Part shown: one piece after another, positions 1,643 through 21,103 of the stretch
Layout: each line of letters begins with the position of its first letter
How positions within the stretch are numbered: the stretch's first letter is position 1
Origin: a virus
Virus record (IMG/VR): IMGVR_UViG_3300032220_002269
Location: 1-48,187 of that record
Reading direction: 5' to 3' (one strand)
Length of the DNA stretch: 48,187 nt
The notes under the pieces: model-generated
Told to the model about the DNA's origin: nothing
Database searches by the model: none
Seen by the model: only the letters and a program-made list of their open reading frames with translations
Translations under genes and position numbers: made by a program

Positions 1643-2752
1643 TTGCTCCATGCACCAGATGCAACCGATGTGCGCGACAGCCATCGAGTTCGTCCACCAA
1701 GTGCAAAAAGCAATGGTATGAAATTACGTCCTAAACCCCTGATGCCTGTTGTAGATCGTCTGGCATGGAAGCTGAAGTGGAGTTGCCACAATGATCGCAA
1801 CCACCCCGACTATCAAGACGTGCTCAGTATCGTCAAAAACGAAATCGCAGTCGGGAATTGTGAGTGGGCCTATCTCAATGGCCCCAAGTACTGCATCAAC
1901 TTCAACATTCTGTTTAACGGAGAAAGAATTGCTCTTGTTCAGTTAGTTGCCGTTAACCCGAAAAAACAGAAGTGCGGGCTGCGTATTGATTGCAACCCTG
2001 CAAAATTGAAGCCCCCAGATGTTGCGACGATCCACACCATCATGCGCCGCATCATCGGTCATCGTCAGTACAACTGCTTGATGCGCGCGCCGTTGCTCCA
2101 AGTCTTTCACGTTGCTGTGGACATTCTGCACCTGGCCTTGAGCAACGTGCTGGTGCAGTACAAAAACGGCCAACTGATGACTGTGATGGCCAAGCGCGTG
2201 AACTCCAAGGGCATCGTTGAAGGCTACAACTTTGGCAGCGTCAAGAGCAATTACCAAACCACAGTCTATGACAAGCGCCTAGAGCGCGTACATGCTGCGG
2301 CTTTGGAGATCGCAAGAACAGGCAGCGCAGGCACCGACGCCGATCCGCTGACTGCCAACCGGATCAGGCAGCTTAAGAAAGCCGTCAACGGCTGCGAGAC
2401 CACACGTGTTGAAGTGCGCGGCAAGAAGATGCTCGGTCTGCCATTGTGGAAGCTGCCTCAGCAAACTAACCGCTTCAAGCGCTTCAGCTTTGCCGATCTC
2501 ACTGGTGCTGGCACCGAGTTGCCTCCACTCATCGAGAAAGCGTTCCTGGCCATGTGCCGCCAAGACGGCGTTAAAGCCGCTCTAGCTGCGTTCAAGTACA
2601 CGGAGTATGCCCACAGCGTTCCCAAGTACTGGCGCAGCCACCAAGCCACATGGTGGCAACCGGAGCAACTGTGGGAGCAGGCTTGTGCCGCGTTGCGTGA
2701 GTCCGGAATCTTTCCGGATTCTGCGTTTGAGCCTCCCCACAAGCGCAAGTAG
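1643..2752 (+). CDS. Rep_trans-like replication initiation protein
   Basis: The 369-residue protein resembles the replication initiation factor (Rep_trans) family of rolling-circle initiators in integrative elements and plasmids. A VDRLAWKLKW-type opening strand lies near residue 36, a TTVYDKRLE segment (Y-x-K-x-x-E pattern with a candidate catalytic tyrosine) lies near residue 210, and a following ETTRVEVRGKK strand fits the R-x-E signature after it. Expected role: nick the element's origin and prime rolling-circle replication. The start is uncertain: residues 1-25 look non-coding and no ribosome site precedes the ATG at 1643, so ATG 1718 or 1741 may be the true start. A terminator follows at once. 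Confidence 0.55.
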   Translation: MLHAPDATDVRDSHRVRPPSAKSNGMKLRPKPLMPVVDRLAWKLKWSCHNDRNHPDYQDVLSIVKNEIAVGNCEWAYLNGPKYCINFNILFNGERIALVQLVAVNPKKQKCGLRIDCNPAKLKPPDVATIHTIMRRIIGHRQYNCLMRAPLLQVFHVAVDILHLALSNVLVQYKNGQLMTVMAKRVNSKGIVEGYNFGSVKSNYQTTVYDKRLERVHAAALEIARTGSAGTDADPLTANRIRQLKKAVNGCETTRVEVRGKKMLGLPLWKLPQQTNRFKRFSFADLTGAGTELPPLIEKAFLAMCRQDGVKAALAAFKYTEYAHSVPKYWRSHQATWWQPEQLWEQACAALRESGIFPDSAFEPPHKRK

Positions 2753-2796
2753 AAACTCAGCGCTACGCAACTGGATGGTTGCGGCTCGGAATCAAC

Positions 2797-2829
2797 GGCC
2801 GGATGGCATGCGCCGTCTGGCCTTTTTTT
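2797..2829 (+). terminator. Rho-independent terminator of the rep gene
   Basis: An 11-bp stem (2797-2807 with 2812-2822, including two G-T pairs), loop ATGC and a run of seven T (2823-2829). It lies 45 bp after the rep stop. Confidence 0.85.
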
Positions 2830-3320
2830 GCTAGCTGAGCGCGTTTTTACTGTGCATGGCGGAGCGCTATTGCCGAGAGCAGAAAACCGCGCCACGACTG
2901 TTCTAGCAGCTTCATGCGCCGACGAAGACTGGTTTGAGCGTTGGTCCTTCCTATCAGTCCATGGTAGCCATCTTGCTTGCCATTAGTGACTGTCGACCGA
3001 AACCAAAAGACCTATCTGTTTTTTGAAAGCCATGCCGAATACGACAGTGCAGCTACGGAGGTGTGTACTCCAGCTGACCGGACCATCTGCGCTTGCTCTG
3101 GCTTGTGGGCCACTGCGTTCGGCCAGGAGAAGTGAGCCAGTGTTTTTTGTGGCTGACTGCTTCGGGCTGAGATCAATTGACTGCTCTCAGCCCGCCATCC
3201 TTCCGCTCCTTCCGAAAACTAACATTGCCCACCGCCGTTATAGATTGGGGCATGGTCCATAGATCATCAAGATGACTAGGGACGGCCCTTTGGGGGAAAC
3301 TGGGACGGGCAGCAAGCTCG
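2830..3320. other. Intergenic gap with one hairpin
   Basis: There is no credible gene in this 490-bp stretch between the convergent rep gene and protease operon. The only structure I see is a perfect 9-bp inverted repeat GGGCTGAGA (3164-3172) / TCTCAGCCC (3185-3193). It lies about 130 bp past the protease stop and lacks a T tract on either strand, so it is at best a weak terminator. Confidence 0.5.
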
Positions 3321-5840
3321 TTACGTTTCAACAACAGCGGCATTAGAAACTTGGATTTTTTGGGCTACGGCGGCGTACAGGTCGACGTCTGTCTGCTGCG
3401 TTTGAATGGACACCACAAGGCTATACCGTGCTGGAAGTCCATATCGTTCCAGAGCAGGCCGCGTCCGCCACCATCCCATAGCCGGATAGACCGCGATGAA
3501 TCCACGGCTGGCCAAATCAGCCGCGGTGCCTTTCCAGACATCCTGATGCAATGAACCACGATGCCGTTGCAACTCACCCAGCACCCAGTTGGGATCAGAG
3601 GGATTCACTGGATCACCCTCATCCTCGCTCTGTGCTGCGGCATTGACACGTGCGACAAAGTTATCGGTGGAGGCATCCAGTGGACGCTGCACATCGAATC
3701 GTAGGCGATGCGACGGGTAGTGATACTTCGATGCGACACCGCGCGCTGATGGATTAGGTTCTATGAAATAGGAGAGTGTGACGCGCATCTCTACAGGCGT
3801 GTCCTGCAATGCTTCCAACTCATCCTTCGGCCAAGGCAAGGAATGCAGATTCATGTCGCGTGTCACGACTCCCTTTACCGGAACCTTCGCATACGGATGA
3901 ACCTGGTCTTCGACCAGCAAAGTCAACGAGTCTCCCGCGCTCCAAAGTGCCCGATTCAAGTCCGGGGTGCCCCATCCACAGTGACGAATCAAGTGAACGT
4001 AGTCACCTTTGTTCGGCATCCGATCTGCAGGTAGAAACATTCCACGCATGGAATCACTCCATTGCGCCGAATGCACCAACAACGCACGCACGGTCTCCGG
4101 TCGGAGGTGAGGATAGGCCGCCATGATCTGCGCAGCCATCCCCGCGCACAATGCCGACGCTGCGCTGGTAGCGTTGCTGGTGGTGAACAATCGATTCAGC
4201 GGTTGATTGTGGGTCGTCAGCAAGTTAAGGCTGGGCATGCCGACCGCGCCGAGATTATCCTTGGCCGCATTGCCACCTTCGAGCACTACTTCAGGTTTCA
4301 ATGGCCATGCTCGATCCCACGTTCTGGTTGTCGTTGTAAAAGGGCTGAGGCCACCAGCTTCAGCGACCGGATTCAAGGAAGCATGTCCTTCCGTGTCGAT
4401 CTTGTCAGTACAAGCGCCCACTGTGATCGCGTTCCATGCTTGGCCGGGGTCATGCACAAGATTGGTGGAAAGGCTCTCGGGATACCCAACCCAAGCATTG
4501 GGGTCGCGCGTGTTGCCAGCGGACAGTACAAACAGACGCGGACTTTCGGCTGCCCCAGCGGTATCCGCAGCAAGGCCATCGACAGCCGCAGACCATGCCG
4601 ACGGACGCCCACGATCACGATAGTCCGAAGCTGTTACAGCCGACGTGAACACGCGCTTCCGATTTGGAGCGGAGATTTCAGGGCGCGAGACGCCTTCGGT
4701 AAAAAGATAGGCATGGTGCCGCGCATCACCTTCGTTGGCGCCTTCTGCAGGCACCAGTTTGACCGACTCCAGCCGGTTAGAAATCTTGATTGGCTCAGCA
4801 GAGGACAAGGCATCGGTAAGATCGCCATAGGCCGCTAACCCGGCCAGGCCCGTGCCGTGATCCGCTTCGTCATCCACGCCCCACACCGGCTCCACCGTAT
4901 GCAGGTCTCCTGCATCCATTAAGGGTTCCAGCAACGGATGTGCTCGCGTCACACCGGAATCCAATAGACAGACGCGGGGTACGGTATCGTCCGGCGGCGG
5001 CAATTGAACACGTAGTTGCAAATCGACCGCCCATTCCCGTTGCTCACCAACATCCATGCCATCGAAGAATTCGGCAGTTTCTTTGGCATAACGGAGCTCG
5101 GCAACACAGTTTAGTGTCATCACCGATCGTGAAAGTTGCTGCTGTGACCCATACATCAGCAAAACCGTGCGCTCGGGGAAGTTGACTTGTTTGTCGCTGA
5201 CGACACATTCCGCCAAGCGAGCTAGCTTCTTGAAGTCTTCCACGACAACCTGCCGTTGCCCTTGCCCTCGAATAGGCAGCCATACCTCCCACCAAAAGGC
5301 AACTGTCAAATCAGTGGGCAAGAGGGCGGGATCGTCAGTCCACAAGGCTCGGACTCCTGCGGCCCGAATTGACTCAATGGCATCCAGTAGTTTCCGGTGG
5401 TCACGCGCCTGACCACGGCTATCTTTCTTCTCCGCCAAATATTCGGAGACGTATTTCTCAAAATGCACGAGGCCCCCATCAGGGACAAAGACATTAGCGA
5501 AAGTCCGATTACCTTCGTGGCGCACACTGAGGAGTTCGATTTTCTTGGTCTCGTTCGCCAAGCTCTCAAATGCAAGCTCTACATCTGGCTGGCTAATGAA
5601 CTGGATTTGCAAACCCAGCCCGCTTTCCAGTTCTAGTTCTCGTTGAGCCTGCGCAGCTTGTGTTGCTGCGGGCTTCAGGTTATTAATCTGACTACCAAGG
5701 AGCGCACCGTGCTGCTGCCGGGGCAGCACTGGTACATCGCGCGTTGATCTACCTCCAGCAGAGTGCGCCTTAAATTCGACAGCTTGTGATGTGTCTCGAA
5801 GAATGAAATGTGGACGTTTAGCTTGTTGTTGATCCGACAT
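3321..5840 (-). CDS. Subtilisin-like (S8) serine protease partnered with AAA+ ATPase
   Basis: An 839-residue cytoplasmic subtilase with no signal peptide. The catalytic triad occurs in S8 order: Asp about residue 294 (CLLDSG), His about 328 (ADHGTG) and Ser about 559 (NATSAASA). An oxyanion Asn sits in LSAGNTRD near 445. About 290 residues precede the triad, without a typical propeptide or export signal. The His-Ser spacing is longer than in classical subtilisins. The start overlaps the upstream AAA+ ATPase by 23 bp, so the two are translationally coupled, and the ATPase probably regulates or feeds the protease. AAA+/subtilase pairs recur in mobile islands and are suspected conflict or defence systems (recollection). 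The substrate is unknown. Confidence 0.85.
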   Translation of the reverse strand: MSDQQQAKRPHFILRDTSQAVEFKAHSAGGRSTRDVPVLPRQQHGALLGSQINNLKPAATQAAQAQRELELESGLGLQIQFISQPDVELAFESLANETKKIELLSVRHEGNRTFANVFVPDGGLVHFEKYVSEYLAEKKDSRGQARDHRKLLDAIESIRAAGVRALWTDDPALLPTDLTVAFWWEVWLPIRGQGQRQVVVEDFKKLARLAECVVSDKQVNFPERTVLLMYGSQQQLSRSVMTLNCVAELRYAKETAEFFDGMDVGEQREWAVDLQLRVQLPPPDDTVPRVCLLDSGVTRAHPLLEPLMDAGDLHTVEPVWGVDDEADHGTGLAGLAAYGDLTDALSSAEPIKISNRLESVKLVPAEGANEGDARHHAYLFTEGVSRPEISAPNRKRVFTSAVTASDYRDRGRPSAWSAAVDGLAADTAGAAESPRLFVLSAGNTRDPNAWVGYPESLSTNLVHDPGQAWNAITVGACTDKIDTEGHASLNPVAEAGGLSPFTTTTRTWDRAWPLKPEVVLEGGNAAKDNLGAVGMPSLNLLTTHNQPLNRLFTTSNATSAASALCAGMAAQIMAAYPHLRPETVRALLVHSAQWSDSMRGMFLPADRMPNKGDYVHLIRHCGWGTPDLNRALWSAGDSLTLLVEDQVHPYAKVPVKGVVTRDMNLHSLPWPKDELEALQDTPVEMRVTLSYFIEPNPSARGVASKYHYPSHRLRFDVQRPLDASTDNFVARVNAAAQSEDEGDPVNPSDPNWVLGELQRHRGSLHQDVWKGTAADLASRGFIAVYPAMGWWRTRPALERYGLPARYSLVVSIQTQQTDVDLYAAVAQKIQVSNAAVVET

Positions 5841-6849
5841 GGCTCGACACTACCCTCTTATTGTTCATTCTGAAGCTAAATTTACGGCGCTCATCAAAAG
5901 CTCGGGTAAGCACATCTGCTTTCACGCGCTCCTCGTCGTGCATTACCGCATCCTTGATGGATTCATCTACTGCGCGTTTGATCTCTGCGTAACTCAGGCC
6001 TTCCGCCTTGGCCGTGATAGCCTTGAGCGGAAAAGGCTTGGGCGCGAATTTGCCCAATCGAGACTGGAGCAACTTGGCAGCCTGCGGCGCGGTCGGAAGC
6101 CGATACTCAATCACATCGTCGAATCGACGAAAAAGGGCGTAATCAAGAATCTCCACATGGTTGGTCGCCGCGACGATCAAGCTATGAGACTGGTCACTCT
6201 CGATCATCTGCAGAAAGCTGTTTAGCACACGCCGAATCTCCCCCACATCGTTGGCCAGTCCTCTCTGCGAACCAATGGCATCGAATTCGTCGAAGAAGTA
6301 AACGCCCCGCACCTCGTTGATGGCATCGAAAATCTGGCGCAGCTTGGCGGCAGTCTCCCCCATGAACTTGGTAATGAGGGCATCAAGTCGAACAGCAAAC
6401 AGCGGGATGCCAAGTTCACCGGCCAGCACAGAGGCGGTCATCGTCTTACCAGTACCTGGCGGGCCGACCAACAGTAGTTTGCGTCTTGGCGACAGGCCAT
6501 GTTCGCGGATACGCGAGTGGTGCTTCTGCTCTTTCATGATGCGGTCAAGCTGTTCAGCCATTTCCGCATCAAGCACCATATCTGCCAGACGATTCTTCGG
6601 ATAGGAAACTGTCAACAGGTTCGCAAGCTCACCACGCGGACGGGCTAACGGCACCAGTTTGCCCTCGGAGTTATCCGGCGAGACACGGGCTTTCGCCGCG
6701 TCGATCATGTCGCGCAGTTCTTCGGCGAGCTTGCCATGGCCCACCTTCGCTTCACGGGCAGCGACCTGCATAGCGACAGAATAGAAGTGTCGGTCATCCC
6801 GCTCGATATGGGATTTCACCAACGCCTTGAGTTGTTCGGCATTAGCCAT
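5818..6849 (-). CDS. Classical AAA+ ATPase of protease module
   Basis: A 343-residue ATPase with one classical AAA domain. Walker A GPPGTGKT lies near residues 129-136, a FMGETAAKL pore-loop/helix region near 160, Walker B VYFFDEFDAIG near 185, sensor 1 VAATNH near 225 and an RRFDD arginine-finger segment near 240. The first 100 residues are helical and probably recognise a substrate or partner. It has the spastin/FtsH-like layout but no membrane segment and no protease domain of its own; the protease is the next gene. It overlaps the upstream XRE gene by 8 bp and the protease by 23 bp, so all three form one operon. Confidence 0.85.
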   Translation of the reverse strand: MANAEQLKALVKSHIERDDRHFYSVAMQVAAREAKVGHGKLAEELRDMIDAAKARVSPDNSEGKLVPLARPRGELANLLTVSYPKNRLADMVLDAEMAEQLDRIMKEQKHHSRIREHGLSPRRKLLLVGPPGTGKTMTASVLAGELGIPLFAVRLDALITKFMGETAAKLRQIFDAINEVRGVYFFDEFDAIGSQRGLANDVGEIRRVLNSFLQMIESDQSHSLIVAATNHVEILDYALFRRFDDVIEYRLPTAPQAAKLLQSRLGKFAPKPFPLKAITAKAEGLSYAEIKRAVDESIKDAVMHDEERVKADVLTRAFDERRKFSFRMNNKRVVSSHVGSTTS

Positions 6850-7159
6850 TGTGGTCTCCCATATGCGCTGTCAAGGGGGTCGATGTTCCCAGTGATGCCA
6901 GCGCAGACTGCATCAACTGATCGGTGAGGCGCTCATTGATTGCCCCTAGCTCATCCTGATCAGCAGCCAGAACAAACAGCAGACCGACAGGCACATGCAA
7001 CGCTTCGGCAATCTTGGTGATCGTCGAAAGTGTCGGGTCGCGCTTATTATTCTCAAGCATCGACAGGTAGGATACGGAGCATTTGGCGCTGTTCGCTATC
7101 GCACTTTGAGAGGCTCCCCGTTGCGTTCGGCAGAGTCGAATGGCTTGCCCTACGTTCAT
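6842..7159 (-). CDS. XRE-family regulator of protease operon
   Basis: A 105-residue protein with an N-terminal XRE/Cro helix-turn-helix: IRLCRTQRGASQSAIANSAK, then CSVSYLSMLENNKRDPTLST, about residues 8-50. A helical C-terminal tail probably dimerises. It is first in the leftward operon and its start lies 16 bp from a perfect 14-bp palindrome overlapping the promoter region, so autorepression is likely. Regulators of this kind keep toxic effector operons silent. It could instead respond to a signal through the tail; no ligand domain is visible. Confidence 0.8.
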   Translation of the reverse strand: MNVGQAIRLCRTQRGASQSAIANSAKCSVSYLSMLENNKRDPTLSTITKIAEALHVPVGLLFVLAADQDELGAINERLTDQLMQSALASLGTSTPLTAHMGDHNG

Positions 7160-7550: not shown

Positions 7551-8543
7551 TCAAAGCAAGCTCGGAGTGGTCTTTCGAGAAGTACTGCGGATGTACTTTG
7601 CCAGTGTTGTGTCTGATCTATGTCCGGTCTGTTCACGTATCTGCCAGGTCGGTTGACCTTGCTCCGCTGCACTGGTGCAATAGCCAGCGCGCATGCTGTG
7701 GCCACTGAAGTTATATGCATCGGCTCCAGTTTGCACCATGGCGGCTTTCACAATGAGTGCTACTGACTGCGGCGTCAGACCTTGCTTGGCAATGCCGTCA
7801 TAGCGGTTGACAGACCTAAAAACATGCCCCGTTCTAATGCCCGCGCTCTTGATCCAGTGCATCAGTGCTTGGACGGGACAGTGACCGCCCCTGCCTCGGG
7901 GAATGAAAACGATTCGGCCATGCTTTTCCTGGTCGGTCTTGCTGGCGGGCAATTCAATATCCAGCCCCGATGGTGAGAAGGTCAGATGTTCCATGCGCAC
8001 GCCAACGAGTTCGGATCGCCGCATTGCCGATGCAAAGCCTACCAACAGAAGGGCGCGGTCACGCGCTGCCCTGACAGGCATGTGGATTTTTTCAATGGTT
8101 TCCAACGCGGCTAGCAGATCCTCTTTCATCAATGGCTTCACTTGTCGCTGCTTGGTGCCGAGTGTGCGGCGTATGCCCTGCATGATTTGTCTGACGATTT
8201 CGCTGTGAGCTGGCGATGTGTGTTTTTGATCGACATGCGCTTTGTGGATCGCTGTGATGCGGCGCTCCAGCGTGGCAACAGCCAAACCATCGTTGGCGGA
8301 CTCAGCCAGGTACTTGGCCAGTCGCTTGGGTGTACAGGGAATGATGCCACCATGCGCCTGAAAGTGCCGCAAGTCTGAGGCGTAGGCTCGCTTTGTGGCA
8401 CTCGCTTGGCTGGCGTCCATATATTCTTGAACTGAGCCACCTTTAATTATCTGGTGCAGATTATTCTGATTTTTGAATTTTTTCTCTGTTTTTTGAGGAC
8501 GATATTTACCAGTGACTGAAATAGTCGAGTGTTTATTGCTCAT
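7551..8543 (-). CDS. Tyrosine recombinase / integrase
   Basis: A 330-residue phage-integrase-family recombinase. An N-terminal SAM-like core-binding domain (about residues 35-130, YMDASQASATKRAYASDLRHF) precedes the catalytic domain. The active-site set is visible: Arg in SAMRRSELV near 174, Lys in PASKTDQEKHGR, the H-x-x-R of SGHSMRAGY near 283-286, His of TGHRSD near 307 and the nucleophile Tyr in AKYIRS near 315. It catalyses site-specific strand exchange at an att site. A 9-bp inverted repeat with 7-bp spacer lies 18 bp upstream of its start. It belongs to the host element, not to the transposable prophage. Confidence 0.9.
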   Translation of the reverse strand: MSNKHSTISVTGKYRPQKTEKKFKNQNNLHQIIKGGSVQEYMDASQASATKRAYASDLRHFQAHGGIIPCTPKRLAKYLAESANDGLAVATLERRITAIHKAHVDQKHTSPAHSEIVRQIMQGIRRTLGTKQRQVKPLMKEDLLAALETIEKIHMPVRAARDRALLLVGFASAMRRSELVGVRMEHLTFSPSGLDIELPASKTDQEKHGRIVFIPRGRGGHCPVQALMHWIKSAGIRTGHVFRSVNRYDGIAKQGLTPQSVALIVKAAMVQTGADAYNFSGHSMRAGYCTSAAEQGQPTWQIREQTGHRSDTTLAKYIRSTSRKTTPSLL

Positions 8544-16886: not shown

Positions 16887-17107
16887 GGCGTGCCCCCTAT
16901 CTCGCGCACGCCGCCCAAATAAACCAGGTTGCGCCAGTACGGCAGCTTGCTTCGGCCGGGTGCATAGAACTCATAACGGTGGCCAGCGCGCACCCAGATG
17001 CAATGCCAACGGCCCGCCCGCGTGCGCACAAAGGAAATGCGTGTTTGAGCTGGGTTCAGTACCCAGGCCACCAGCGCGGCAACGATGCAGTTGCAGGGGA
17101 ATTTCAT
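16883..17107 (-). CDS. Small lysis-region protein of unknown function
   Basis: A 74-residue protein (MKFPCNCIVAALVAWVLNPA...) with a short hydrophobic N-terminus (residues 5-18), then a basic, aromatic-rich region (RWHCIWVRAGHRYEFYAPG). The start at 17107 overlaps the lysozyme stop by 4 bp and the end overlaps the Rz start by 4 bp, so it is translated within the lysis operon. It may be exported or membrane-bound and could act as a small holin-like accessory protein, but there is no family I recognise. The longer frame from 17128 is less likely. Confidence 0.6.
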   Translation of the reverse strand: MKFPCNCIVAALVAWVLNPAQTRISFVRTRAGRWHCIWVRAGHRYEFYAPGRSKLPYWRNLVYLGGVREIGGTP

Positions 17108-17646
17108 GGCATGGGCTCCCCAAGGCACATCGAACGCAGCGCCTTGCGGTCTTTCCAGACGCCCCTGCAGGTACGGTTGTCAGGATGGCTACACCGGTCG
17201 CTCGGCTTGTTGACTGGGCCTGCGCGGTCGTAAAGCAGGATGGCTTCACAGGCTCCGGCATAGTTCTCGGCCTGCAGGCGCAGCTTGATGGTGCTGGGGC
17301 CTGTGCGGTCGTTGTTAAAGCAGACCGGCGTGACGCCTGTGTTGTAGGCCAGGCCCACGTAAGCATCCCATTCGCGTTGGAGCAGCTTGATGTCGCCGAG
17401 GCAGCGCCGAAGGGCTATCTCTTTTTCATTGGCATCAGAGCGAAGCCTGACCAATGCACGTACAGGGTCAGTCTTGTCGCCCATCTTTACGCCTGCCGTG
17501 GTACCGAAACCATTGGTTGGTACCTTTGTGCCGTGCACAGGGTCAGCGTAGGCTTGATCGCTGTAGCCCTCGCGCTGAGCTATGTAGACCAGTCCAGTTG
17601 CAGATAGCGCAAGGGCCAGAATTGTGTGACGAATTTCAAACGCCAT
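17104..17646 (-). CDS. SAR-type phage lysozyme (GH24 endolysin)
   Basis: A 180-residue muramidase of the P21/lambdoid GH24 family. Residues 8-23 (TILALALSATGLVYIA) form a weakly hydrophobic, Ala/Gly-containing signal-anchor-release segment, so it is exported by Sec and held inactive in the membrane. The active site follows: Glu26 (QREGYSD), Asp35 (YADPVHG) and Thr44 (KVPTNGFGTT), with three extra residues between Asp and Thr compared with the usual spacing. It cleaves the glycan strands of peptidoglycan. Several cysteines in the C-terminal half may form disulfides. It is the first gene of the leftward lysis and packaging operon. Its ribosome site lies inside a hairpin (17649-17672). Confidence 0.9.
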   Translation of the reverse strand: MAFEIRHTILALALSATGLVYIAQREGYSDQAYADPVHGTKVPTNGFGTTAGVKMGDKTDPVRALVRLRSDANEKEIALRRCLGDIKLLQREWDAYVGLAYNTGVTPVCFNNDRTGPSTIKLRLQAENYAGACEAILLYDRAGPVNKPSDRCSHPDNRTCRGVWKDRKALRSMCLGEPMP

Positions 17647-17648
17647 AC

Positions 17649-17672
17649 AGCCCCCCTTGCGCCTGGGGGGCT
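17649..17672 (-). promoter_or_regulatory. Hairpin over the lysozyme ribosome-binding site
   Basis: In the leftward RNA an 8-bp stem, AGCCCCCC with GGGGGGCT, closes an 8-base loop. The only Shine-Dalgarno-like bases (AGGGGG) lie in the 3' arm, ending about 4 bases before the ATG at 17646. This should hold back lysozyme translation unless the stem is opened. Confidence 0.55.
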
Positions 17673-17697
17673 ATCGTCTGAGGTGTAGGTGATTTCA

Positions 17698-17718
17698 TGC
17701 ACGGCAGGATGCCGTGCA
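17698..17718. repeat. Perfect 9-bp hairpin in lysis leader
   Basis: TGCACGGCA (17698-17706) and TGCCGTGCA (17710-17718) form a stem with a 3-base loop. There is no T tract on either side, so it is not a standard terminator. It lies between the late palindrome and the lysozyme gene. The whole gap 17647-17789 holds only this, the second hairpin and the palindrome. Confidence 0.6.
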
Positions 17719-17734
17719 GGTCGCTTTTGAGTTG

Positions 17735-17789: not shown

Positions 17790-18422
17790 TCAATGCTGAT
17801 GTCGGGTTGGCTGATTCAAGGGGGGGCCTTCTACCCAGCCACTACCTCTCAGCGTTCCGGCTCCAGCACGCATCTCTTCCAACAACCGTTCCCGTTCGCG
17901 TCGCTGTTTCTCGAGCAAGCGTTGCCGGCCCTTGTGGGCACGAATTTGGTTTTCCCAATAATTGGCCAGCAGGTAAGCGTAAGTCGAGCAGCCTATTGCA
18001 GCACCACTGACAAGCACCATGCCGTGCCAGATCGGGCCAATGAGCTGGTTGGAAACAGCAGGCCCAGAGGCCAATAGTGCCATCACCGCAGTGACTGCAG
18101 CCCACGACGAAGACCTCGTTCGATGCGTACTCACCAGTTGCTCGAACTGCCGGTATTCACTTGCTGACATCAACTCGGTGTCTACGGCATCGTCAATGCG
18201 ATCCCGCATCGCCCAAACCGCCGTGGCGCAAAGCATGCAAAACGGCGAAGCCATCCCTGATGCCCATGCCAGAATTTTGACGCTATCGACAAAGTGCCAT
18301 GCAAGCTGCGCGAGTCCTAGACCTAGAGCAATCAGAATAGGGAAAGTAACGACGCGAGGAACAGCCAGCCAGCCGATTAGGCGACTGACAGCTCTTGCTC
18401 CGAAACCTTCTGTAGCAGCCAT
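17790..18422 (-). CDS. Four-helix membrane protein, RexB-like by position and topology
   Basis: A 210-residue integral membrane protein. Hydrophobic spans lie near residues 26-46 (VTFPILIALGLGLAQLAWHF), 50-70, 105-125 (AAVTAVMALLASG) and 130-150 (HGMVLVSGAAIGCSTYAYLL). A strongly charged C-terminal tail (about 152-185, RQRLLEKQRRERERLLEEM) probably forms a cytoplasmic coiled coil. It overlaps the upstream 346-residue gene by 46 bp, so they act as a pair. A soluble protein plus a four-span membrane protein in the lysogenic operon is the design of lambda RexA/RexB, in which RexB depolarises the membrane on superinfection. No clear sequence match to RexB is claimed. A holin is less likely because the gene is in the repressor-side block. 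Confidence 0.65.
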   Translation of the reverse strand: MAATEGFGARAVSRLIGWLAVPRVVTFPILIALGLGLAQLAWHFVDSVKILAWASGMASPFCMLCATAVWAMRDRIDDAVDTELMSASEYRQFEQLVSTHRTRSSSWAAVTAVMALLASGPAVSNQLIGPIWHGMVLVSGAAIGCSTYAYLLANYWENQIRAHKGRQRLLEKQRRERERLLEEMRAGAGTLRGSGWVEGPPLNQPTRHQH

Positions 18423-19417
18423 TGCCGCAATCCTTCATATACCTCTGAGGCATTAAGTTGACCATCGTATGACATGACGCCGATGGACCCTGTCAGCTTC
18501 AAATCCGAGCCCTTGATACTTCCGCCCCCTATGAGCTGGAGTTCCGTCTCAACATCATCCGTGTTTCTGAGCGCCGCTCCCAGAGAGTCCATCAGCTTCT
18601 GTCCATCTTCTGTGGTCTTTCGGCTGTAGCGCAGCGTCACACTCAATTCGATGTTGGAGCCAGCGAGTTTCTCAAAATCGATCTTGGCGGCCTGAGAGGG
18701 CTTCATGAGCTTCTTCAGCGCAGCCAGCACACCAAAGTCATCCTGAGTCGCAGTTGCCATCGCTGTCGTTTGAACCGCAACCTCTTTGGTCTTTTGGGAA
18801 CTCTCTGCACCCTGTGGCACTTGAGGCACGATCACCGACGGTGGGAGTACCTCACCACCAAGTTTGATGGTGCGCACGCCCTTGGCTTGATTCATCTTCC
18901 TCTTCACCGCCTCGCTTGGGGTATCAATCAGTTGCAGTGTGTTCGTCCCTTCCAAGACCCCGCTGGCATGCAAATACCACTGGAGATAGGCCTCAAAATG
19001 CGCAGACTTTAGTGCTTGCGATTGCATGAGCACCATGTGGTTGCCAATCACGGCGAAGAACATGAGTGAAGCCAGAAACTCCCGCCGTTTTCCATCATCC
19101 GTGGCAGGCGCGGATACCTTTTCCAGCACAACGTCCACTGCTTCCGCATCATCAATGATGCACAGCGGGTCTGTGTCTGGGGTGTAGGTCATCAAGGCCC
19201 CGAAGACAAACCCTGGGTTCTCGCATTTGGTCGAGCCAATAGCGTGATAAATCGGATCCTCTGCCCCGGCCACATTTTGTCGACGCTCCCCAAGCTTCTG
19301 GCGCTTGCTCAAAGCTGACTCCAATAATGTCTTTAGGGTCTGGCCATTGGTATCTGCGTGGAAATTTACGCGCTTATAGATGATGGTCTTCTGAACCTTT
19401 TTTCCCTTGGTGCTCAT
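18377..19417 (-). CDS. RexA-like soluble sensor (remote similarity), partner of membrane protein
   Basis: A 346-residue soluble protein. Its central stretch (about residues 110-180: FLASLMFFAVIGNHMVLMQ, then a helix, VLEGTNTLQL, EAVKRKMNQAKGVRTIKL) follows the same strand-helix order as my recollection of lambda RexA residues 90-160. The C-terminal end (DLKLTGSIGVMSYDGQ, then a last helix) also resembles RexA's end. The basic N-terminus (STKGKKVQKTIIYKR) could bind nucleic acid. A Q/T/A-rich linker near 200-225 separates two domains. RexA senses phage DNA-protein complexes and triggers RexB. Here the gene overlaps the four-span membrane gene by 46 bp and has its own dyad-bearing upstream region. 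The homology call is tentative. Confidence 0.6.
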   Translation of the reverse strand: MSTKGKKVQKTIIYKRVNFHADTNGQTLKTLLESALSKRQKLGERRQNVAGAEDPIYHAIGSTKCENPGFVFGALMTYTPDTDPLCIIDDAEAVDVVLEKVSAPATDDGKRREFLASLMFFAVIGNHMVLMQSQALKSAHFEAYLQWYLHASGVLEGTNTLQLIDTPSEAVKRKMNQAKGVRTIKLGGEVLPPSVIVPQVPQGAESSQKTKEVAVQTTAMATATQDDFGVLAALKKLMKPSQAAKIDFEKLAGSNIELSVTLRYSRKTTEDGQKLMDSLGAALRNTDDVETELQLIGGGSIKGSDLKLTGSIGVMSYDGQLNASEVYEGLRQWLLQKVSEQELSVA

Positions 19418-19481
19418 GAGTCTCCCTCTATTGCCTGTGACTGTTACTAACTGGCACGCGACGCTTGGATATTCGTCCAGT

Positions 19482-19495
19482 CGCTATCTATAGCG
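19482..19495 (-). promoter_or_regulatory. Dyad in the promoter region of the Rex-like pair
   Basis: CGCTAT-CT-ATAGCG is a perfect 6-bp inverted repeat with a 2-bp centre, 65 bp before the start of the 346-residue gene. On the leftward strand it contains a TATAGA -10-like box. An operator or promoter for the accessory pair is likely; the -35 is not clear. Confidence 0.4.
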
Positions 19496-20659: not shown

Positions 20660-21103
20660 CTATTTCGTCTTCTTGCGGGGCGATGGCTTGGGCGGAGCAG
20701 CCGAATAGCTGCCGCCAATAGAGCCGATCTGCACGTTGCCATCGCCCAGGTTGGACATATTCATCCCACCTGACGCAGCACTGGTTGGTACTGCAGACAG
20801 CAAGGCCCCCATGGCGGCACGTCGGACAGCTGGCTCAGCAGCACGGAAGTACTTGAGCATCGCTGCCTCCTCTGAGGTTTGTACGGCCTCATCTCGGTCT
20901 ACAGGCAACTGACCAGTGAGGATGTAGAGCACATCTACACCAATTGTCGCGAGCACAGCAAGGTAGTCCGCATCTGGGCGTCTGGCATCAGTTTCGTAGT
21001 TGAACTGCGTTTTACGCGTAGTGCCAGCGCGCTCAGCGAAATCCGACTGGTTGTACCCAAGTCGCTCTCTTTGATCTCGCAGCCTGCTACCAATCGAACT
21101 CAT
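20660..21103 (-). CDS. XRE-type prophage repressor (functional Mu c analogue)
   Basis: A 147-residue repressor. The XRE helix-turn-helix occupies about residues 5-65 (GSRLRDQRERLGYNQSDFAE, RAGTTRKTQFNYETDARRPD, ATIGVDVLYILTGQLP). The C-terminus has a glycine-rich strand (GDGNVQIGSIGGSYS) and a basic proline-rich tail (PPKPSPRKKTK). There is no LexA-type peptidase domain, so induction should not go through RecA self-cleavage. Its start lies 15 bp from the perfect dyad at 21118-21137, which fills the spacer of the divergent early promoter, so it should repress transposition genes and probably itself. This replaces the Mu-type c repressor. Confidence 0.85.
   Translation of the reverse strand: MSSIGSRLRDQRERLGYNQSDFAERAGTTRKTQFNYETDARRPDADYLAVLATIGVDVLYILTGQLPVDRDEAVQTSEEAAMLKYFRAAEPAVRRAAMGALLSAVPTSAASGGMNMSNLGDGNVQIGSIGGSYSAAPPKPSPRKKTK

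Follow-up and report, generated by a model that had tools for sequence, protein, structure and literature searches.

A pair of overlapping genes in a Mu-like prophage forms a conserved two-gene unit and is best explained as an abortive-infection system of the RexAB type, a reading to which a probability of about 0.7 is assigned. The pair lies in a stretch of 48,187 nucleotides (hereafter the window), which corresponds to positions 1 to 48,187 of the IMG/VR virus record IMGVR_UViG_3300032220_002269. The interpretation as an abortive-infection system is favored because three published pairs of the same architecture, RexABpp, CarolAnn and Sbash, abort infection. Three features of the RexAB class are found in the window, namely a soluble protein of the RexA/RdgC fold, an adjacent and co-oriented four-span protein, and a location downstream of the repressor on the same strand, the fold and topology being predicted. 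The original prediction of a RexA/RexB-like pair thus gains support from the fold, from the gene order behind a repressor and from the four-span partner.

The gene pair and its surroundings

The coordinates of the pair and its neighbors are given in Table 1. Both reading frames (346 and 210 residues, with exactly 46 bp in common) are present as originally predicted, except that the outer end of the block had been placed at 19495, about 80 bp beyond the start of the soluble gene. The soluble protein shows a full-length HMM match to phrog_3482 (E 2.1e-48; protein residues 4-343, profile positions 3-342 of 344). In another phage, a relative shares 61% identity with the soluble protein, and the overlapping partner of this relative shows 50% identity across 210 aa. 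Both genes are under strong purifying selection; the dN/dS ratios, wherever they could be estimated across the family, are mostly 0.03-0.19 for both genes, with the exception of one nearly saturated pair (0.36). Because of the profile match, the 61%/50% relative and the low dN/dS, neither reading frame is regarded as a chance ORF. The 46-bp length of the overlap is common to the window and three other loci (L007, L008 and L088), and translational coupling of the two genes is likely.

Table 1. Positions of the gene pair and neighboring features in the window
Feature	Position	Strand	Basis or annotation
Iet defense pair (subtilase IetS, AAA ATPase IetA)	3321-6849	-	IetS E 4.5e-39; IetA E 2.5e-78
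HTH gene adjoining the Iet pair	6842-7159
Tyrosine recombinase adjoining the Iet pair	7551-8543	-	Phage_integrase E 3e-14
Endolysin	17104-17646	-	N-terminal hydrophobic segment of signal-arrest-release-like type
Two strong hairpins between the pair and the endolysin gene	17635-17727	-	both lack a minus-strand U-tract
RexB-like four-span membrane protein (predicted), 210 aa	17790-18422	-	ORF, model, conservation, charge
Overlap of the soluble and membrane genes, 46 bp	18377-18422	-
RexA-like soluble protein (predicted), 346 aa	18377-19417	-	ORF; phrog_3482; AlphaFold model; PDB match 8TWQ
Protein of unknown function, 75 aa	19502-19729	-	ORF
Imm_superinfect membrane segment with C-terminal zinc ribbon, 137 aa	19744-20157	-	PF14373 E 1.4e-14; phrog_1039 immunity to superinfection
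Protein of unknown function between repressor and pair, 147 aa	20194-20637	-
HTH phage repressor, 147 aa, presumed start of the lysogenic operon	20660-21103	-	HTH_31/HTH_3; phrog_8 transcriptional regulator

The assignment of the window to a Mu-like prophage stands, as Portal_Mu, Phage_Mu_F, a transposase with an rve core and an AAA protein in the MuB position are all present. On the minus strand, the HTH repressor gene is followed by the genes for the 147-aa, Imm_superinfect and 75-aa proteins, the pair, the two hairpins, the endolysin gene and the spanin gene. The pair had been placed in a repressor-side, lysogenic block. Its position on the minus strand downstream of the HTH repressor agrees with this placement, whereas strand does not separate the block from the late genes, because the endolysin and head genes downstream of the pair are co-oriented with it. 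The hairpins may mark a transcript boundary. A scan for consensus promoters gave nothing above chance, and the gene order points to lysogenic expression of the pair from the repressor operon.

Several other features of the window deserve mention. The RexAB-like block is immediately preceded by the gene for a fusion of an Imm_superinfect segment and a zinc ribbon, and one other family member likewise has an Imm_superinfect gene upstream. A Gly-rich tail containing a G-x-GNVQIG motif forms the end of the repressor; the motif is also seen in the repressor of L008, a related Mu-like prophage (1993-2433 of that locus), and in the window the product of the gene after the repressor carries a similar motif, GSGNLQAGRIDGDLH. 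The same record carries a second, known defense system, Iet. The adjoining tyrosine recombinase is unexpected in a transposing phage, and the left 8-9 kb of the window may belong to a neighboring element or to host DNA.

Regarding the gene order in relatives, several unrelated phages carry the pair behind their repressor. In Perceval, CI is followed by the pair and Kil; two Acinetobacter phages (phi1_092021 and Ab1656-2) have CI, a small gene and the pair; and a P2-like prophage (L011) has the repressor, a small gene and the pair. In L008, a stretch of which is also present in Allofranklinella (L087), the repressor is followed by an HSDR_N-type gene (2624-3805), the pair and lysis genes. Because the HSDR_N-type gene occupies this position, the interval from the repressor to the lysis genes appears to hold variable cargo. 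In many loci, the pair has no recognizable repressor alongside; HTH_3, the commonest repressor-type domain, occurs in 12 of 69 upstream genes from 38 loci, and in L007 the pair lies between integrase and terminase genes, away from any repressor seen in that locus.

The proximity to the endolysin gene raises the question of whether the membrane protein is a prophage holin or a lysis accessory. The membrane protein, endolysin and spanins are encoded in this order on one strand of the window, no other holin was recognized beside the endolysin, and the L007 partner has a weak match to a holin phrog (E 0.5). In contrast, the holin of SfIV is annotated separately on the opposite strand, the Perceval pair adjoins CI and Kil instead of lysis genes, the L007 pair has no adjoining lysis gene, and two hairpins separate the membrane gene from the endolysin gene in the window. 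On these grounds, the holin reading was rejected as the least probable of the explanations considered.

Predicted structures and relation to lambda Rex

An AlphaFold model of the soluble protein, built on an alignment of 75 members, reached a pLDDT of 72 and a pTM of 0.70. The N-terminal globular and C-terminal parts are modeled with high confidence, and residues 189-258 are disordered and of low confidence. According to domain limits inferred from the secondary structure of the model, the protein consists of a split globular domain (~1-190 and 320-346) and a dimerization-type insert (~245-317) preceded by a disordered linker. In a Foldseek search of the PDB, lambda RexA (8TWQ) was the sole match at E <= 0.001 (E 9.1e-5, probability 1.00). 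A VIA comparison with RexA gave a Z of 11.0 over 151 residues at 3.5 Å (model residues 10-346, RexA residues 1-269), followed by CENP-N (6.7), RdgC (6.1) and Iml3-Chl4 (5.6). RexA is therefore the best match by a wide margin, which is the opposite of the unrelated structure that would have spoken against the original prediction. This list of matches is coherent, since the report of the RexA crystal structure names RdgC, IML3 and CHL4 as structural relatives (PMC11077077). The appearance of the kinetochore proteins CENP-N/Chl4 and Iml3 directly after RexA is consistent with the relationship of RexA and RdgC to the inner kinetochore that has been described in the literature. In the model, the succession of a globular part, an inserted beta-alpha domain and a final helix returning to the globular part agrees with the split two-domain layout of RexA (PMC11077077). 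The global TM-score against RexA is low (0.31-0.37), and together with the low confidence of residues 189-258 it leaves the relative placement of the domains uncertain. Five more structure matches, all uncharacterized phage proteins, were found in BFVD. The soluble protein thus very probably has a RexA-type fold, and dimerization and non-specific DNA binding are predicted for it.

As RdgC belongs to the same fold group, the soluble protein could be imagined as an RdgC-like modulator of recombination or replication of the phage's own DNA, anchored to the membrane by its partner. This is highly improbable, as RdgC (Z 6.1) is far from the closest fold when compared with RexA (Z 11.0), and the pair is shared by Mu-like, lambdoid and P2-like phages, whose replication modes are unrelated.

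The model of the membrane protein (pLDDT 87) contains four helices of membrane length (26-44, 48-80, 87-118 and 130-193), the last of which extends into the cytoplasmic tail. The tail comprises 57 residues, including 12 K/R and 7 D/E, so that the predicted topology agrees with the initial description of a four-span protein with a charged C-terminal tail. Charged residues are absent or nearly absent from the short loops but occur in the central loop and the tail; by the positive-inside rule, the central loop and both termini are likely located in the cytoplasm. The best conserved positions among 67 members are 60 (P), 89 (E), 170, 92, 181, 93, 163 and 91, which fall in a proline of span 2 (60), the central loop (89, 91-93) and the tail. 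The model has no match in the PDB at E <= 0.001.

At the level of primary sequence, no similarity of the soluble protein to lambda RexA was found by BLASTP or by a PDB sequence search, and Pfam PF15969 (RexA) did not match it at E <= 10. Profile comparisons by hhalign using 6, 43 or 53 family members, as well as single domains, likewise revealed no similarity to a shallow five-sequence RexA profile; the score was reached by 5% of the column-shuffled controls for the full-length protein and by 87% for the C-terminal part. Pfam PF15968 (RexB) matched no member of the A5 alignment at E <= 0.01 and did not match the membrane protein of the window at E <= 1, and only hydrophobic stretches were aligned between the membrane family and the RexB profile by hhalign. 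The proven RexAB-like proteins gp44 and gp43 of CarolAnn also lack similarity to lambda RexA and RexB by the same tools and have no Pfam match. Because these proteins fail the same tests, the absence of sequence similarity is uninformative rather than negative, and RexAB-type systems should therefore be regarded as a class defined by fold and architecture that contains several sequence lineages.

Comparison with known systems and predicted function

RexAB-type systems had been described in the original prediction as hardly known outside lambdoid phages, a view that is out of date. Such systems have been published from the actinophages Sbash, CarolAnn and Butters and, in January 2026, from Pseudomonas putida as RexABpp (PMC6426596, PMC6426606, PMC7542560, PMC12894663). 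As in lambda, the window encodes a protein of the RexA fold and shows the order repressor, soluble protein and four-span protein in co-orientation. The two systems differ in that the soluble protein has 346 aa in the window and 279 aa in lambda, the membrane protein has 210 aa with a long charged cytoplasmic tail in the window and 144 aa in lambda, and the genes overlap by 46 bp in the window, whereas they are separated by a 15-bp gap in lambda. RexABpp (PP_5643/PP_5644 of the cryptic prophage P1) also resembles the window, with a soluble RexA-fold protein followed by a four-span protein, membrane-protein termini on the same side, and a location downstream of a CI-like repressor (PMC12894663). 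Its reported DALI Z for 8TWQ is 8.8 (PMC12894663), compared with the VIA Z of 11.0 for the window. CarolAnn gp44/gp43 (a Gordonia phage) and Sbash gp30/gp31 (a mycobacteriophage) are likewise soluble and four-span proteins that are both needed for exclusion, although their hosts differ, as these are actinophages. The CarolAnn genes lie behind a repressor and overlap by 26 bp, compared with 46 bp in the window. No similarity between the soluble proteins of the window family and those of CarolAnn and Sbash was detected by hhalign. The residues W25, F35, L55, T103, S145, G153 and Y181 of RexBpp were used as a fingerprint, and no match of five or more was found among the family membrane proteins compared. 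The window pair would represent one more sequence lineage of the RexAB type or the lineage of RexABpp itself, which was compared by description and residue fingerprint only.

Published work on these systems provides a basis for the predicted function. Both genes of RexABpp are needed for defense, and over-expression of RexApp causes growth arrest only with RexBpp, with dye entry in a subpopulation of cells (PMC12894663). The same topology is predicted for Sbash gp31, where the substitutions R70A and D73A, both located in the central cytoplasmic loop, abolish defense (PMC6426596). The conserved loop positions 89 and 91-93 of the window family fall in the corresponding region. From the genes, their pairing, the selection on them, the predicted fold and topology and the gene order, we infer expression, DNA binding, contact between the proteins, membrane damage and exclusion as follows. 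The lysogen would express both genes from the repressor operon. The RexA-like protein would close on DNA as a dimer and sense the replication or a protein of an invading phage. By analogy with the published relatives, the activated sensor would then engage the central cytoplasmic loop of the four-span protein, which would oligomerize and damage the inner membrane, so that growth would stop and the infection would be aborted. A literature search found no report of phage exclusion by any member of exactly this family.

Other divisions of labor between the two proteins should also be considered. The RexA-like protein may influence the lysogeny switch as well, as lambda RexA does. In a stronger form of this idea, tuning of lysis and lysogeny would be the main role of the pair: the RexA-like protein would bind DNA and the repressor and favor induction, the membrane protein would sequester it, and exclusion would be a by-product. 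Lambda RexA biases the CI-Cro switch and is antagonized by RexB (PMC11077077), and the recurrent position behind a repressor is in line with such a role. In contrast, the L007 pair resides away from any repressor seen, and the strongly conserved membrane partner and its loop argue for an effector role of its own, which makes switch tuning an unlikely main function. Less likely still is a reversal of roles in which the soluble DNA-binding protein would act as the toxic effector and be kept inactive by its membrane partner. This arrangement has been published for Butters gp30/gp31, as cited in the report on RexABpp (PMC12894663), and the near-obligatory pairing would also fit a sequestration partner, whereas the membrane protein is the effector in the best-studied RexA-fold systems, lambda and RexABpp. 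Within the RexAB-type reading, a tentative and rather doubtful extension is that the pair belongs to a large lineage of prophage exclusion systems separate from lambda Rex, in which a DNA clamp of the RexA fold drives a four-span effector, distinguished from RexB by a conserved central loop and a long charged cytoplasmic tail, in response to a trigger that is likely unlike that of lambda, because the sensor must distinguish the phage's own transposition intermediates from the replication of the invader.

Distribution and significance of the lineage

Profile searches with the soluble protein retrieved at least 171 relatives from viral contigs, of which 80 were kept, and 23 from genomes. Prophages of the lambdoid, P2-like and Mu-like types and those of Acinetobacter carry the lineage, and the relatives in SfIV, Perceval and the Acinetobacter phages show 26-31% identity. 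A partner reading frame lies directly downstream of the soluble gene in 106 of the 108 loci examined, and both loci without a partner are near contig edges. Among 43 representatives sharing less than 80% identity, 42 have a full partner, which overlaps the soluble gene or lies within 30 bp of it in 41 cases; in SfIV, the partner is shortened and adjoins an IS1 transposase gene. The protein distances of the two partners are correlated (r = 0.90; the highest value under permutation was 0.28), with a contribution from shared host-phage ancestry. The soluble and membrane genes evolve together.

These proteins have escaped functional annotation. The soluble proteins belong to phrog_3482 and phrog_33638 and the membrane proteins to phrog_4510 (Acinetobacter partner) and phrog_16807 (Perceval partner), all four without an assigned function, and the membrane protein of the window has no supported PHROG match. 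No supported match for either protein was found in PADLOC or NCBIfam, and the lineage is absent from the Pfam, NCBIfam and PADLOC models. No close relative of the membrane protein was confirmed by a sequence search in viral contigs, as patterns derived from a single sequence have a narrow reach. In complete genomes of E. coli, a relative was detected by DNA similarity in 44 of 5426, and the copies among the matches listed are annotated as hypothetical.

Although the RexAB-type class itself is known, the large size of this lineage, its occurrence in a Mu-like phage and its absence from the Pfam, NCBIfam and PADLOC models are new; no report of a RexAB-type pair in a Mu-like phage was found in the literature. 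The authors of the RexABpp study counted five RexAB-like systems in all, including lambda (PMC12894663), and this count of early 2026 contrasts with the at least 171 loci of the lineage in viral contigs. If the predicted function holds, RexAB-type exclusion would be a common cargo of proteobacterial prophages that is missed by defense libraries based on sequence models, such as PADLOC. The lineage also offers many natural variants for addressing the old open question of the Rex trigger.

The depositors of the phi1_092021 genome named its soluble protein a 'DefenseFinder protein'. In addition, a second and distant subfamily of the pair (L145-L153; ~20% identity) was found in Pseudomonas-type prophages, where a membrane partner is again present. 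These loci share at most three of the seven RexBpp fingerprint residues, too few to claim identity with RexBpp, and in one of them (L145) a CI-type repressor gene lies upstream of the pair.
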